Source of the DNA: Thermoproteota archaeon
Lineage (GTDB): Archaea; Thermoproteota; Thermoprotei_A; Sulfolobales; NBVN01
Direction: 5' to 3'
Assembly (NCBI GenBank): GCA_030550455.1
Contig: JAUQPH010000003.1
Location: forward strand, 9,134-73,133
Length of the DNA stretch: 64,000 nucleotides
Every line of letters starts with the position of its first letter. Position 1 is the stretch's first letter. Of the stretch, positions 2,795 to 8,944 are shown one piece after another. The notes beneath the pieces are model-generated. The model did no database searches. It was not told where the DNA came from and saw nothing but the letters and a program-made list of their open reading frames with translations. A program made the position numbers and the translations under genes.

Positions 2795-2951
2795 TGAGTA
2801 CTTATAGTACCTAACTTATCTCTCGCCATACCCTTGGTATCTACCGGCTTACACATTTCAACTCCAGTACAGTCAGACCTAAACAACTAGTTTGTTGAAC
2901 GTTCAATAACGGTTATTTCGCGAGGTCTAAGTATGTGCTGGTGATAGAGAG

Positions 2952-3959
2952 TTGAAACTAGTTGACTCTTACGAGTTTATCGAAAAGCTTCGTGACCTGA
3001 TATACCAGTTACTGGAAATCAGGGACAGGTCTCGTATAGGTGGTGACTCATTTCTGCGTATTAAGATGGGGACACCTCTAGTCAAGCTCGGCTTCATATC
3101 GATGCTTAAGGGAGGTGTGATAATGGATGTTACAAACGAGAAGCAGGCCGAGATAGCGGAGGACGCAGGCGCCGTTGGAGTAATGGTCCTTGACAAGCTT
3201 CCCTACGACGTCAGAGCGTCCGGTGGTGTCGCCCGAACAGCTGGACTAGATGTGATCCAGAGGGTCATGGAGACTGTTACGATACCTGTATCAGCTAAGT
3301 GTAGAATCGGACATGCGGAGGAGGCGAGGTTGCTTGAGGAAGTGGGTGTAGACCTAATAGACGAAAGCGAGGTCCTTACTCCAGTAGACGAGAGAGCCCA
3401 CATAAATAAGTGGGAGTTTATGGTACCCTTCGTAAACGGGGCCAGGAACCTCCCAGAGGCACTAAGGAGGATATTCGAGGGGGCTTCTATGATAAGAACG
3501 AAGGGAGAGCCCGGCACTGGAAACGTTGCGGAAGCAGTAAAGCACATGAAGTTGGTTAACAGAGATATCGCAACTTTGAGAGGGTACTATATGTCGGGGG
3601 ACGTCGAGGCTCTGTGGGTGTATGCGAAGGAAAACAAAGCTCCATACGAACTGGTTATACTTACAGCGAGACTCGGTAGACTGCCTGTAGTGAACTTTGC
3701 TGCTGGTGGTATCGCTACTCCAGCTGACGCTGCCCTCATGATGTGGTTGGGAGCGGACGGAGTCTTCGTGGGCTCCGGCATCTTCAAGAGCTCGGACCCA
3801 GAGGCTAGAGCCAGGGCTATAGTGCTAGCCACCGCATACTACGACGACCCGGAGACAGTTGCTGAGGCCCAGAAGATGGTGTCCGAGAGATCTGCGATGA
3901 TAGGTATAGACGTCAGGAAGCTGAAACCTGAGGAGCTTATGCAGGTCAGAGGTGAGTAG
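2952..3959 (+). CDS. pdxS: Pyridoxal 5'-phosphate synthase lyase subunit PdxS
   Basis: [45 protein letters not shown] and [24 protein letters not shown] are characteristic of PdxS. Confidence 0.97.
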
Positions 3960-4560
3960 CTTGGTAGTAGTTGGAGTGCTGAGCCTCCAGGGAGACTTCC
4001 TGGAGCACCTACAGCTCCTCTCTGAGATCGATGGAGTTAAGGCTTTACCGGTTAGGTCGGCTAAGGACCTAGCTAGAATAGATGCTCTAGTCATACCCGG
4101 AGGGGAGTCTACAACCATAGGCTTCTTGATGAGACTTAGAGGGCTCGACTCAGCTATTATTGACCTAGCGAGAGAAGGTAGACCTATCATGGGGACGTGC
4201 GCTGGGGCAGTACTCCTAGCTAAGAGGGTAGCAGATAGAGTAGTAGGCGATACAGGGCAACCTCTTCTCGAGCTAATGGACATAGCCGTCAAGAGAAACG
4301 CCTTCGGTAGACAAAGAGAGTCATTTGAAGTAGAACTTTCTTTAGAGGGTATAGGCTCTATGAAGGCCATCTTCATCAGGGCTCCTGCGATAGTCGAAGC
4401 CTGGGGCGACGCAAAAATAGTAGCTTACGTCGACTATCCAGGTATCGGCAGGGTTGGGGCGGTGGCCATTCAGAAAAACGCACTCGCAGTCACTTTTCAC
4501 CCAGAAATCTCACGAGACACGAAGCTATATGAGTACTTAGTCTCACTAGTTAAGAAGTAG
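3952..4560 (+). CDS. pdxT: Pyridoxal 5'-phosphate synthase glutaminase subunit PdxT
   Basis: [32 protein letters not shown]; overlaps pdxS. Confidence 0.96.
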
Positions 4561-4578: not shown

Positions 4579-5706
4579 TTGGGTAGTAACGCAGACCGAA
4601 ACTTGTTGACTTGCGTCAATTGCGGGAGGATATACAGTGACGAGGTCTTAATCTGCCCTATTTGCGGTTGGCTAACGATCTTTAAGTACTCGAATAGAGC
4701 TTTCAGAGTCGATAAAGCGGAGCCGGGCATCTGGAGGTATAGATCCGTCCTGCCTAAGGTAGACAGAGTCGTCTCAAAAGGAGAGGGACTGACTCCTGTT
4801 AACAACATTGGGGGAGTACTAGTAAAAAACGAGCGCTACAATCCCACAGGCACTTACTCCGATAGAGCTTCCTCCGTCATTGCGAGCTACGTACTCTCCA
4901 AGGGACTCACAACCATCAGAACGAAGTTCGAGGAGGACTTTACCTACTCCCTCACTTACTACCTAATCGGAGTCTCGTCTATCGAAGTAGTCGTAGGAGA
5001 TCCTCTATCGCTTGATTACTTAGACGTAGACATACTGCTACGAGCCGGGAATGTTAAGCTAATCTTCGACGAGAATGAGAAGGCCTCCCTATTAGGCTAC
5101 ACATCCCCTCTCACTATAGAGGGATTGAAAACCATCGCCTTCGAGATATATGAGAGGAGACTCAGAGTAGAGAGAGTAGTTGTTCCAGCGAGAACAGGGT
5201 TACTAGCTTACTCGATCTGGAAGGGCTTTAGAGACCTAGAGGATGCCGGTGTAAACGCATCCTACGAAGTAGTGGCTACTTCGATTAAAGGAATGGGAAA
5301 CCCCATACTGCCTGAGTTCGCTAAGTCGATTAAGCTAGTCGAGATAAGTAGAGATGAAGCATTCGACTCCTTGGTGAAGCTCTGGAAAAACGGAGTCAAA
5401 ACGAAGCCTTTATCCGCATCCGCCTATGCTATAGCCGAAAACATGGGGAACTCTGTAGCTGTCGTTACTATGGGCTTTAGACCTCTTTCGGCTGGCAGGA
5501 GGACAGATAAAGGAGTGCGTAAAGAGATAATTCGCATACTAGAGAAAAGCGGAGGGGCTACAGCATACGAAGTATGGAAGGTTTTCCCTGCTTACTCCCT
5601 CCGCGGAATCTATAAAGTCCTAGAGTCAATGGAGGAAATGGGTGAAGTGTGCAGTGACTTTAAGTCGAGGGGAAAGCGAAAAATTAAGTATTATAGAGTG
5701 TGCTGA
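4579..5706 (+). CDS. Threonine synthase-like fold-type II protein (probable pseudoenzyme) with N-terminal Zn ribbon and C-terminal winged helix
   Basis: CVNCGRIYSDEVLICPICG ribbon; NPTGTYSDRAS in place of NPTGSFKDRG (catalytic Lys absent); LTIEGLKTIAFEIYE; C-terminal GVRKEIIRILEKSGGATAYEVWKVFPAYSLRGIYKVLESMEEMGEV resembles a wHTH. Confidence 0.75.
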   Translation: MGSNADRNLLTCVNCGRIYSDEVLICPICGWLTIFKYSNRAFRVDKAEPGIWRYRSVLPKVDRVVSKGEGLTPVNNIGGVLVKNERYNPTGTYSDRASSVIASYVLSKGLTTIRTKFEEDFTYSLTYYLIGVSSIEVVVGDPLSLDYLDVDILLRAGNVKLIFDENEKASLLGYTSPLTIEGLKTIAFEIYERRLRVERVVVPARTGLLAYSIWKGFRDLEDAGVNASYEVVATSIKGMGNPILPEFAKSIKLVEISRDEAFDSLVKLWKNGVKTKPLSASAYAIAENMGNSVAVVTMGFRPLSAGRRTDKGVRKEIIRILEKSGGATAYEVWKVFPAYSLRGIYKVLESMEEMGEVCSDFKSRGKRKIKYYRVC

Positions 5707-6276: not shown

Positions 6277-7443
6277 CTACGTCCTTAACCCTATTGAGGC
6301 GAGTTTCTGCGGGTTTACCAATGTAAACAACTTCTGCGCTACGTCTGGATTAGCCTCACTTATCCTCTGTAACACTAGTTGGTACAGTGTAAACCTTACA
6401 TCACTCGGTATTTGTGATAAGGCATCGGCGTAATCTACTGGTGCCGGGAAGCCCGTCGCTTCGCTTACAGACATCACTGAAGAAACTAGCTCCTCGTCAC
6501 TTAGGTCTACTGAGTCGTACTCTATTTTGACTGCTGTAGTGCTTATCCCAGAGTGGGGTCTGTAGAACGCCATTTTCATCCTACTAGCTATGTTTGAATA
6601 CCTAAGCATCTGCTTTAGCCAAGCGAGTCTGTACTTAGCAGGCGAAACCTCTCTAGGGTAAGCGACTCCGTAGTCATTAATTAAGCTCTGGTAGGCAGAT
6701 GCTATAGACTTGTAGTCCCCTATGACAGCGAATTCCCCGGGTTCTAAAACGTACGTCATAAAGGCTCTATCGCTTAAGTCAACGTCTAAGAAGTGTCCGA
6801 GCACGGCTAAAGCATCCTTGGAGTAGCTCCTCTTGAGTACTCCCACGACAGGAGTCTTAGTTTTTTCGGCCAGAAGAACCATAGTGTCAGTTAGTCTCAC
6901 CAGCTCTCTAGCTTTATCTGACTCTACACTAACTCCAGCGAGAACTCTTGGCGACAGCCGGGGTAAAACCTCACCGTCGAGTACGATAATGTCGAAGTAG
7001 ACTTCCCCTCTAGACTTCCTCCTTAGAGCCTCTATGGCTTTCTCCCTCTCGAGTCTTCTGGCTTCCACCCTGGTTAAATCCCTAGTTGGATCGTACGTTA
7101 CATAAGCTGCGACCTCAAACTCCGATGAAGTATAGCGACACTCCTTACCGTATAGGGCGCTAACAACGAAGATGAGACCTAGGTATCCTCCGACGAGCTC
7201 TAGAGGAGGAGAAGTATAGCTCGAGTCTATGCTTAAGAAGCACTTTTCTCCAGTATGAGTAACCCTCCTTATGGTACTGCTCGAGACTAATCTCTCCCTA
7301 ACTTTAGACGCTATTTCGGCTATTGAGGCTACTCTACCTATCTTAATAACTACGGAGTCAAGAGCTTCCCCTAGTAGCTCAGGAGCTATCCCAACGACTC
7401 CTTCTGCTCTAGTCTGCTCTTCACCCCATGGTGGGTTCTCCAA
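6277..7443 (-). CDS. nurA: NurA domain 5'-3' nuclease
   Basis: FLSIDSSYTSPPLELVGGYLGLI NurA-like motif; overlaps a HerA gene. Confidence 0.75.
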   Translation of the reverse strand: MENPPWGEEQTRAEGVVGIAPELLGEALDSVVIKIGRVASIAEIASKVRERLVSSSTIRRVTHTGEKCFLSIDSSYTSPPLELVGGYLGLIFVVSALYGKECRYTSSEFEVAAYVTYDPTRDLTRVEARRLEREKAIEALRRKSRGEVYFDIIVLDGEVLPRLSPRVLAGVSVESDKARELVRLTDTMVLLAEKTKTPVVGVLKRSYSKDALAVLGHFLDVDLSDRAFMTYVLEPGEFAVIGDYKSIASAYQSLINDYGVAYPREVSPAKYRLAWLKQMLRYSNIASRMKMAFYRPHSGISTTAVKIEYDSVDLSDEELVSSVMSVSEATGFPAPVDYADALSQIPSDVRFTLYQLVLQRISEANPDVAQKLFTLVNPQKLASIGLRT

Positions 7444-8944
7444 CTTCCTTCACCCGCATAAGTATGGGGAACCTTAGGGGGTTCCCGAGGCCGGCGAAGA
7501 AGAACTCTCGTACTCCGAGAACTGACAGTGACTCCGGACCCAGACCGCCTAAGTCCAAAACTCCCCGAAGGTTCTCGAAATCACCGGGGGTCTGCAGCCT
7601 GCTGAAGTAGAACGTGTTTATGTTGTTTCTAATATCAGTCGAGAAGTCTATTATTCTCTGACTGGCTAACACTAACCCGATCTCCCACTTCCTCCCTTCT
7701 CTAGCAGTTCTCTCAATCGAGCGTAGGGAGGCTCCACACCCCATGCATGCATAGTTGTGCGCCTCGTCTATGACCACTAGCGTCCTGGGTTTCTCCCTCC
7801 GCTCGTCCACGATTCTCCAAAGCTCGTCTATAACGGATTTCACTATATACCTCCTTACGACCATCTCGACACTACTCAAGTCAACGACGACGATCCTCTC
7901 CTTTAGAACCCTATCGACCACTTCACGAGCCGTGAGTTTCTTCTTGTTTAGTGACTCTATTAGCTCCTTAGAGTAGGTCCCTATAAGTAAGCTCATCTTA
8001 GCCACAGTTGGGTCCTTTGCCTCAAGCTCTTTGCCTACCCTCTCGACGCACTTACGGAACAAGTGTAGGTCCCACGTTATTTCTGTCATAAGCTTCTCGG
8101 TATTTGTGAAGTCAAAGCCCTCGACGAATCTCATGCTACAGGCGAATGAGGTTCCAGATGGGGTAAGTACTTTATCGGGTTTCTGAGGACCGTGAGTTGT
8201 TGTAGAAGTTCTCTTGAAGGAAGCTATGTAAGCATACACAGTTGCCAATATGTACTCTTCCTGCCTCTCGAGCGTAGACCTCTCCGCTATTAGCTCGCCT
8301 AGGGTTACAGGATCGGGCATTACTAGAGATGCGTCTACTACGTTGTGAGGGTAATAAGATGTGTAGTCTACTCCAGAGTGGTCGAACACTATCACCTTCC
8401 AGTCAGTCTTGGACAGCACTTCGTCTATGAGGGCCTTCACGAGCCTCGATTTACCGGCCCCAGTTGCCCCAACTACCCCTATGTGGTAGGGTAGGTATTT
8501 GGGGTTCAGAGGTACTTTGACCCCTGAGTACTTGTGTTCTCCTATTGTCATTCCCTCACCAACGTCGAGCGCAAGGTCCTCGGGGGACTCGATGAGCAGA
8601 ACCTCACTCCTTGGAGTTGGTGGGTCTACCGTAGGTTCGAGCTTTCCACCGCATATTTCCCCGATGATCCTGACGTACGAGGTCTCGAATGGAACGTTCG
8701 TAGCTATTTCTGCGAGTCTGGGGTTATCCACTACTCCGGATCTCTGAGTCGCAGGCAAGAGGGGGTCTATTTTAGACAACCACCTTATTAAACCGAGGTA
8801 CTGCTTTCCCGTTACCCTATCTCTGATAACCGCAAGAGACTCTTCGCGAAGAACCCTCTCGGCGTCTTTGTACACCAGTACGGGGGCGTAAAACGACTTA
8901 GAACCACTAGCAATCACACCAACGGGCTTCAAGACCTTCGCCAT
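7421..8944 (-). CDS. herA: HerA-type bipolar DNA helicase/ATPase
   Basis: Walker A GVVGATGAGKSRLVKAL, Walker B TLVVIDEAHNY, VLASQRIIDFSTDIRNN. Confidence 0.85.
   Translation of the reverse strand: MAKVLKPVGVIASGSKSFYAPVLVYKDAERVLREESLAVIRDRVTGKQYLGLIRWLSKIDPLLPATQRSGVVDNPRLAEIATNVPFETSYVRIIGEICGGKLEPTVDPPTPRSEVLLIESPEDLALDVGEGMTIGEHKYSGVKVPLNPKYLPYHIGVVGATGAGKSRLVKALIDEVLSKTDWKVIVFDHSGVDYTSYYPHNVVDASLVMPDPVTLGELIAERSTLERQEEYILATVYAYIASFKRTSTTTHGPQKPDKVLTPSGTSFACSMRFVEGFDFTNTEKLMTEITWDLHLFRKCVERVGKELEAKDPTVAKMSLLIGTYSKELIESLNKKKLTAREVVDRVLKERIVVVDLSSVEMVVRRYIVKSVIDELWRIVDERREKPRTLVVIDEAHNYACMGCGASLRSIERTAREGRKWEIGLVLASQRIIDFSTDIRNNINTFYFSRLQTPGDFENLRGVLDLGGLGPESLSVLGVREFFFAGLGNPLRFPILMRVKEVGEPTMG

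Follow-up and report, generated by a model that had tools for sequence, protein, structure and literature searches.

The closest described counterpart of the protein reported here is bacterial PdxR, in which an N-terminal GntR winged helix is fused to a fold type I aminotransferase domain; its gene lies beside pdxST, and its regulon comprises pdxST and B6 transport. Apo-PdxR activates pdxST, and MocR regulators such as PdxR have been reported to be absent from Archaea (PMC5320631). Regulators were not covered by a survey of the B6 pathway in Bacteria and Archaea, which describes B6 transporters as unidentified in many organisms (PMC9997740). In a search of the open literature, with subscription papers mostly outside it, neither an archaeal B6 regulator nor a transcription regulator of fold type II was found. 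Threonine synthases (PRK05638, TIGR00260) resemble the present protein in fold and N-terminal zinc ribbon, and the PRK05638 type also ends in a winged helix. The ECF S-component HmpT/PdxU2 is the nearest solved relative of a predicted target transporter, that is, of a regulated gene and not of the regulator.

The protein, here called TSL, is encoded in a stretch of 64,000 nucleotides from a Thermoproteota archaeon of the order Sulfolobales (the window). With a probability of roughly 0.8, comparative evidence points to TSL as a one-component archaeal regulator of vitamin B6 supply, which would sense B6 and bind the palindrome TTGAACGTTCAA before pdxS and B6 transporter genes. As in PdxR, a winged helix is fused to a PLP-enzyme fold, the gene lies beside pdxST, and the predicted regulon covers pdxST and B6 transport, whereas in TSL the winged helix is C-terminal, the fold is of type II and the lysine is missing.

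A lysine-less threonine synthase fold beside pdxS and pdxT

The TSL gene begins with TTG 18 bp after pdxT, on the same strand and contiguous with pdxST (Table 1), so the placement directly downstream of pdxS-pdxT given by the first-pass annotation is correct. The threonine synthase fold also proposed there is borne out by a Pfam PALP match (2.3e-14) and by the best PDB matches, which are threonine synthases throughout, both by sequence and by fold (6nmx_B in the PDB fold search, E 1.0e-14, TMq 0.58). The NCBIfam cutoffs for threonine synthase are nevertheless missed by a wide gap (PRK05638, 108.5 vs. 421 bits; TIGR00260, 33.6 vs. 167.1). Compared with lysine-bearing threonine synthases, TSL has Ser94 (codon TCC) at the PLP-lysine position, its GNAGN phosphate loop reads ARTGL, STGN is replaced by an EEDF-like stretch in which the asparagine is gone, and the cap region is short by ~45 residues; the lysine-to-serine change and the altered phosphate loop had both been recognized in the first pass. 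The zinc ribbon, described there as kept, is conserved as CxxC..CxxC in the family alignment, C29 being invariant and the other three cysteines nearly so. The suspected C-terminal winged helix is visible in the AlphaFold model (22-sequence alignment, pLDDT 88, pTM 0.76), where residues 309-375 follow the textbook order helix-helix-helix-strand-wing-strand. Among known Pfam winged-helix families (FUR, TrmB, PadR), TSL scored below the gathering score (FUR, 18.5 vs. 23.1; TrmB, 14 vs. 25.6), and no Pfam match to GntR was obtained. Further along the window (6277-8944, minus strand), a NurA nuclease gene (PF09376) lies beside a HerA-like ATPase gene, an ordinary archaeal DNA-repair pair.

Table 1. 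Features of the TSL locus (positions in the window)
Feature	Position	Strand	Basis
Predicted operator, palindrome TTGAACGTTCAA	2895..2906	.	unique genome match, upstream alignments
TATA-like element GGTTATTT, at constant spacing from operator	2911..2918	+	54-site alignment
pdxS, PLP synthase subunit, predicted target gene	2952..3959	+	Pfam SOR_SNZ 1.3e-92
pdxT, glutaminase subunit, predicted target gene	3952..4560	+	Pfam SNO 1.7e-47
TSL gene, 375 aa, threonine-synthase-fold pseudoenzyme ending in a winged helix	4579..5706	+	ORF, Pfam, alignment, AlphaFold, PDB fold match
N-terminal zinc ribbon, Cys12, Cys15, Cys26, Cys29	4612..4665	+	family alignment
Former PLP-lysine motif NPTGTYSDRAS	4840..4872	+	sequence, alignment
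Ser94 codon	4858-4860		
C-terminal winged helix, residues 309-375	5503..5703	+	AlphaFold, alignments
Recognition helix, residues 341-353	5599-5637	+	AlphaFold, alignments
Arg342 codon	5602-5604	+	AlphaFold, alignments
Lys346 codon	5614-5616	+	AlphaFold, alignments

Of the 214 genomes of the order, 50 carry relatives of TSL, which also occur in other families of the phylum; among the named records are Sulfolobales and Desulfurococcales MAGs, Ignisphaera, Fervidicoccus, Thermosphaera, Caldisphaera, Thermoproteus sp. AZ2 and Methanomethylicota. They form a single clade in the tree (72 rows, SH-aLRT 100, stem 1.06). The PLP lysine occurs in none of the 79 family members aligned, its position being taken by Ala (43), Ser (14), Met (13), Tyr (3), Val (2), Thr (2), Gly (1) or Ile (1); L019, with Phe, was counted in the residue table but is excluded from the 79 because the tree puts it in a sister class. 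Loss of the lysine is a fixed property of the family and not a local mutation, far beyond what chance would give. The suggested survey of lysine-less homologues found pdxST linkage at 33 of the 52 TSL loci of the order, in two arrangements, mostly pdxS-pdxT-TSL, with six loci reading TSL-pdxS-pdxT, one with the genes 2.8 kb apart and one with a pdxT remnant; linkage recurs outside the order (L126, L128, L153, L155). The three observations that the first-pass annotation had set against its own reading, namely an intact lysine in relatives, no winged helix and no pdxST linkage, were thus each looked for and did not appear.

Two sequence classes of pdxS exist in genomes of the order, and the class found in the window (>500 bits) is almost confined to genomes with TSL, the exception being a fragment in G180, which suggests that pdxST and TSL may have moved as one cassette. 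In two genomes (G009 and G137; L056, L071), the pdxS reading frame is broken into two or three pieces by frameshift or assembly error, with the operator and TSL intact.

Predicted operator and regulon

In the genome of the window, TTGAACGTTCAA has a single match, even with one mismatch allowed, and it sits just 5' of pdxS. Over 54 aligned sites, T occurs at +17 in 44 and A at +18 in 40, in fixed register to the palindrome, which places the operator directly upstream of the BRE position. The operator core GAACGTTC is present in 37 of 42 pdxS upstream regions from TSL-carrying genomes and in 0 of 9 from genomes without TSL (p=6.6e-7), and the exact 12-mer is found genome-wide in 26 of 50 genomes of the order with TSL vs. 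6 of 164 without (Fisher p=2.5e-14), both p-values being inflated by kinship of the genomes; the reversed pattern, used as control, gave no match in TSL-carrying genomes of the order. As for the five upstream regions without the exact core, L052 is at a contig end, L053 and L175 are one base off, L095 has the variant GAAGCTTC and L096 is degenerate. Among the exact sites in genomes lacking TSL, those of G102, G045, G035, G197 and G201 were treated as chance and not counted, and that of G180 lies before a truncated pdxS; the counts leave out second sites in G053, G149 and G156. The site is also present before pdxS where TSL is unlinked in the genome (L173, L174). In Caldisphaera-group genomes (L176, L177), it precedes a pdxS of the other sequence class, so that the palindrome tracks the presence of TSL rather than the class of pdxS. 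Where the order is TSL-pdxS-pdxT, the site lies between TSL and pdxS and not 5' of TSL; a site before TSL itself, as expected for autoregulation, was looked for and found only at L081/G145.

The same palindrome precedes several kinds of transporter genes in other TSL-carrying genomes. It lies 5' of ECF S-component (PF07155) genes in G038, G146, G011, G057 and G354, with EcfA and EcfT downstream in the first four and lacking in G354, a genome from outside the order. Further sites lie 5' of an APC permease of ~465 aa (G074, G076, G250, G304, G299), of an MFS transporter (G073, G076) and of an ABC binding protein/permease pair (G003, G064). pdxS is also preceded by the site in G250 and G304, and no pdxS hit was obtained in G038, G146, G354, G074, G076, G073, G003, G064 or G299. 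The single PDB match of the ECF S-component is 4hzu_S (1.2e-4), which is HmpT, for which pyridoxamine has been identified as substrate (PMC4860826). The theme common to the site-bearing genes is predicted to be B6 supply, and the DNA target and regulon proposed for TSL are well supported by these comparisons. At the ECF gene of G037, no clear site was seen.

The APC-family permease (about 455-480 aa, with ..NSLAGQAPxYSIAGG..) is found under the operator in nine genomes (L271, L273, L274, L219, L280, L336, L342, L345, L348) and is a candidate archaeal vitamin B6 transporter. In Acidilobaceae-type genomes (L088, L089, L090, L094), a ThermoDBP-related gene lies 3' of TSL in conserved synteny, with no recognizable operator. 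This gene and the CBS-HTH and DUF981 genes beside unlinked TSL were considered and rejected, since no site accompanies them and their synteny follows the lineage.

Recognition helix and operator vary together

In carriers of TTGAACGTTCAA, residues 340-346 mostly read [ST]L[RK][GA]xY[KR]. In family f31, by comparison, position 342 is occupied by Gln or Leu, and TTAAACGTTTAA stands at an unchanged distance before pdxS in each of the five upstream regions of that family; this variant also lies 5' of the same APC permease (G294, G339, G314, G288) and of a class V aminotransferase (G329, G429, G314). In G043, in which Lys346 is replaced by Thr, the sole exact TTGAAGCTTCAA of the genome is located at pdxS. 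That Arg342 reads the G of TTG is strongly supported by this covariation, which rests on few clade-level events, and loss of the arginine together with loss of the G is what direct readout predicts, tying the operator to TSL and not to another regulator. TTGAAGCTTCAA was rejected as a general operator of Lys346-variant proteins since it is common elsewhere in G086, G038 and other genomes; it has no sensible target in G063, G065 and G066, and only G043 was therefore counted. Targets of the TSL proteins of G063 and G066 (Lys346 to Ser) were looked for and not found.

The class V aminotransferase (L338, L343, L349, L278, L281) occurs under the variant operator or beside a site-bearing MFS gene. 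In NCBIfam it matches pyridoxamine-pyruvate transaminase best (262 bits, short of the 600 cutoff), and in the PDB 2z9u; an archaeal enzyme of pyridoxamine salvage is possible.

Mechanism, alternatives and the wider family

It is proposed that the catalysis-less fold type II domain of TSL senses B6 status, and that a TSL dimer acts at the BRE/TATA box of B6 genes, its winged helices, presumably two per dimer, binding the palindrome directly upstream of this element at pdxS and, in other species, upstream of B6 transporter genes. Both dimerization and DNA binding by TSL itself are presumed here. With the lysine, the STGN asparagine and the glycine phosphate loop lost, it cannot be taken for granted that TSL binds PLP at all, and any such binding would have to be non-covalent, in a rebuilt pocket. 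The effector would most likely be PLP or another B6 vitamer; PLP itself is favored, with a different ligand holding a lesser yet considerable share. An amino acid, O-phosphohomoserine or a substrate of PdxST (glutamine, pentose or triose phosphate) might instead be sensed by a TSL regulating the same B6 genes. The lost PLP-anchoring residues fit such an effector, and phosphohomoserine is also bound by the ancestral fold, but synthesis and uptake genes in one regulon share only the end product, and this option is considered rather unlikely. As to the sign of regulation, activation at low B6 is preferred. Repression at high B6, in which B6-loaded TSL would cover the BRE and block TFB, is a serious contender, as the operator abuts the BRE position. 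However, the constant spacing to the TATA-like element over 54 sites, which belong to different genes, suggests that TSL touches the basal factors directly. Such contact is made by archaeal activators such as Ptr2. Together with the activation of pdxST by bacterial PdxR in its apo form (PMC5320631), the fixed spacing favors activation by apo-TSL.

Linkage and co-occurrence alone would allow that a different, unlinked regulator binds the palindrome and that TSL is merely co-inherited with pdxST. This is highly improbable, because changes in the TSL recognition helix go along with changes of operator bases in separate clades and the other pdxS class bears the site only in TSL-carrying genomes. 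It is similarly hard to credit that TSL is still an enzyme (a lysine-independent threonine-synthase-like or PLP-handling one) or a partner of PdxST using its winged helix for protein contacts. The threonine synthase fold has been kept and the gene is contiguous with pdxST in the window, but the lysine, STGN, phosphate loop and cap segment are lost, a lysine-bearing threonine-synthase-like protein is encoded in the same genome (L331), and TSL is retained in several genomes without a pdxS hit (e.g., G038, G063, G073, 99% complete), which implies that it is not only a PdxST partner. The regulator reading of TSL, as anticipated in the first-pass annotation, accordingly gains support from a conserved palindrome tracking TSL, a B6-type set of predicted targets and recognition-helix/operator covariation. 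PdxR-like logic built on a different fold, also anticipated, is consistent with the comparative evidence for control of pdxST and B6 uptake through a conserved operator. With neither an N-terminal GntR-type winged helix nor a fold type I domain, TSL is predicted to work like PdxR yet stands outside the PdxR family, as an archaeal, non-homologous analogue.

The TSL architecture is shared by threonine-synthase/winged-helix fusions of the TACK archaea (PRK05638-like), which fall outside the TSL clade and many of which keep GN and GSG motifs (L137 and L138 score 387 and 356 bits, cutoff 421). Their lysine is replaced by Arg, Tyr, Phe, Thr or Met and is kept in Bathyarchaeota. A PF07155 ECF S-component gene adjoins 16 of about 36 distinct fusion loci, and in one subgroup (L137, L139, L306, L309, L314, L305 and others) a TTAAAG-N6-CTTTAA-like palindrome, unlike the TSL operator, precedes it. 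This adjacency and these palindromes suggest that the regulator role is older than the pdxST-linked clade, and the wider family probably has the same B6 role as TSL. Proteins with Lys replaced by Arg beside a palindrome-preceded ECF S-component (L137, L139, L306, L309, L314, L318, L146, L305) are probably a sister family of B6 regulators misannotated as threonine synthase. About as likely as not is a broader scheme, in which all TACK proteins of this architecture would constitute a large family regulating B6 uptake and synthesis; members that keep the lysine, in Bathyarchaeota, would sense PLP by forming an internal aldimine, and the lysine would then have been lost via Arg and Tyr forms toward the pdxST-linked clade.

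The outcome is a defined protein, a predicted operator of 12 bp and a list of targets. TSL appears to be a switch for B6 synthesis or import in many heat-loving archaea, and the predicted regulon nominates archaeal B6 transporters of the ECF, APC, MFS and ABC types, a gap named in the B6 pathway survey (PMC9997740). The findings also suggest that threonine synthase is the wrong name for a widespread family now annotated as such, and the scheme of a PLP enzyme turned into a B6 switch would have a second, independent origin, from another fold.
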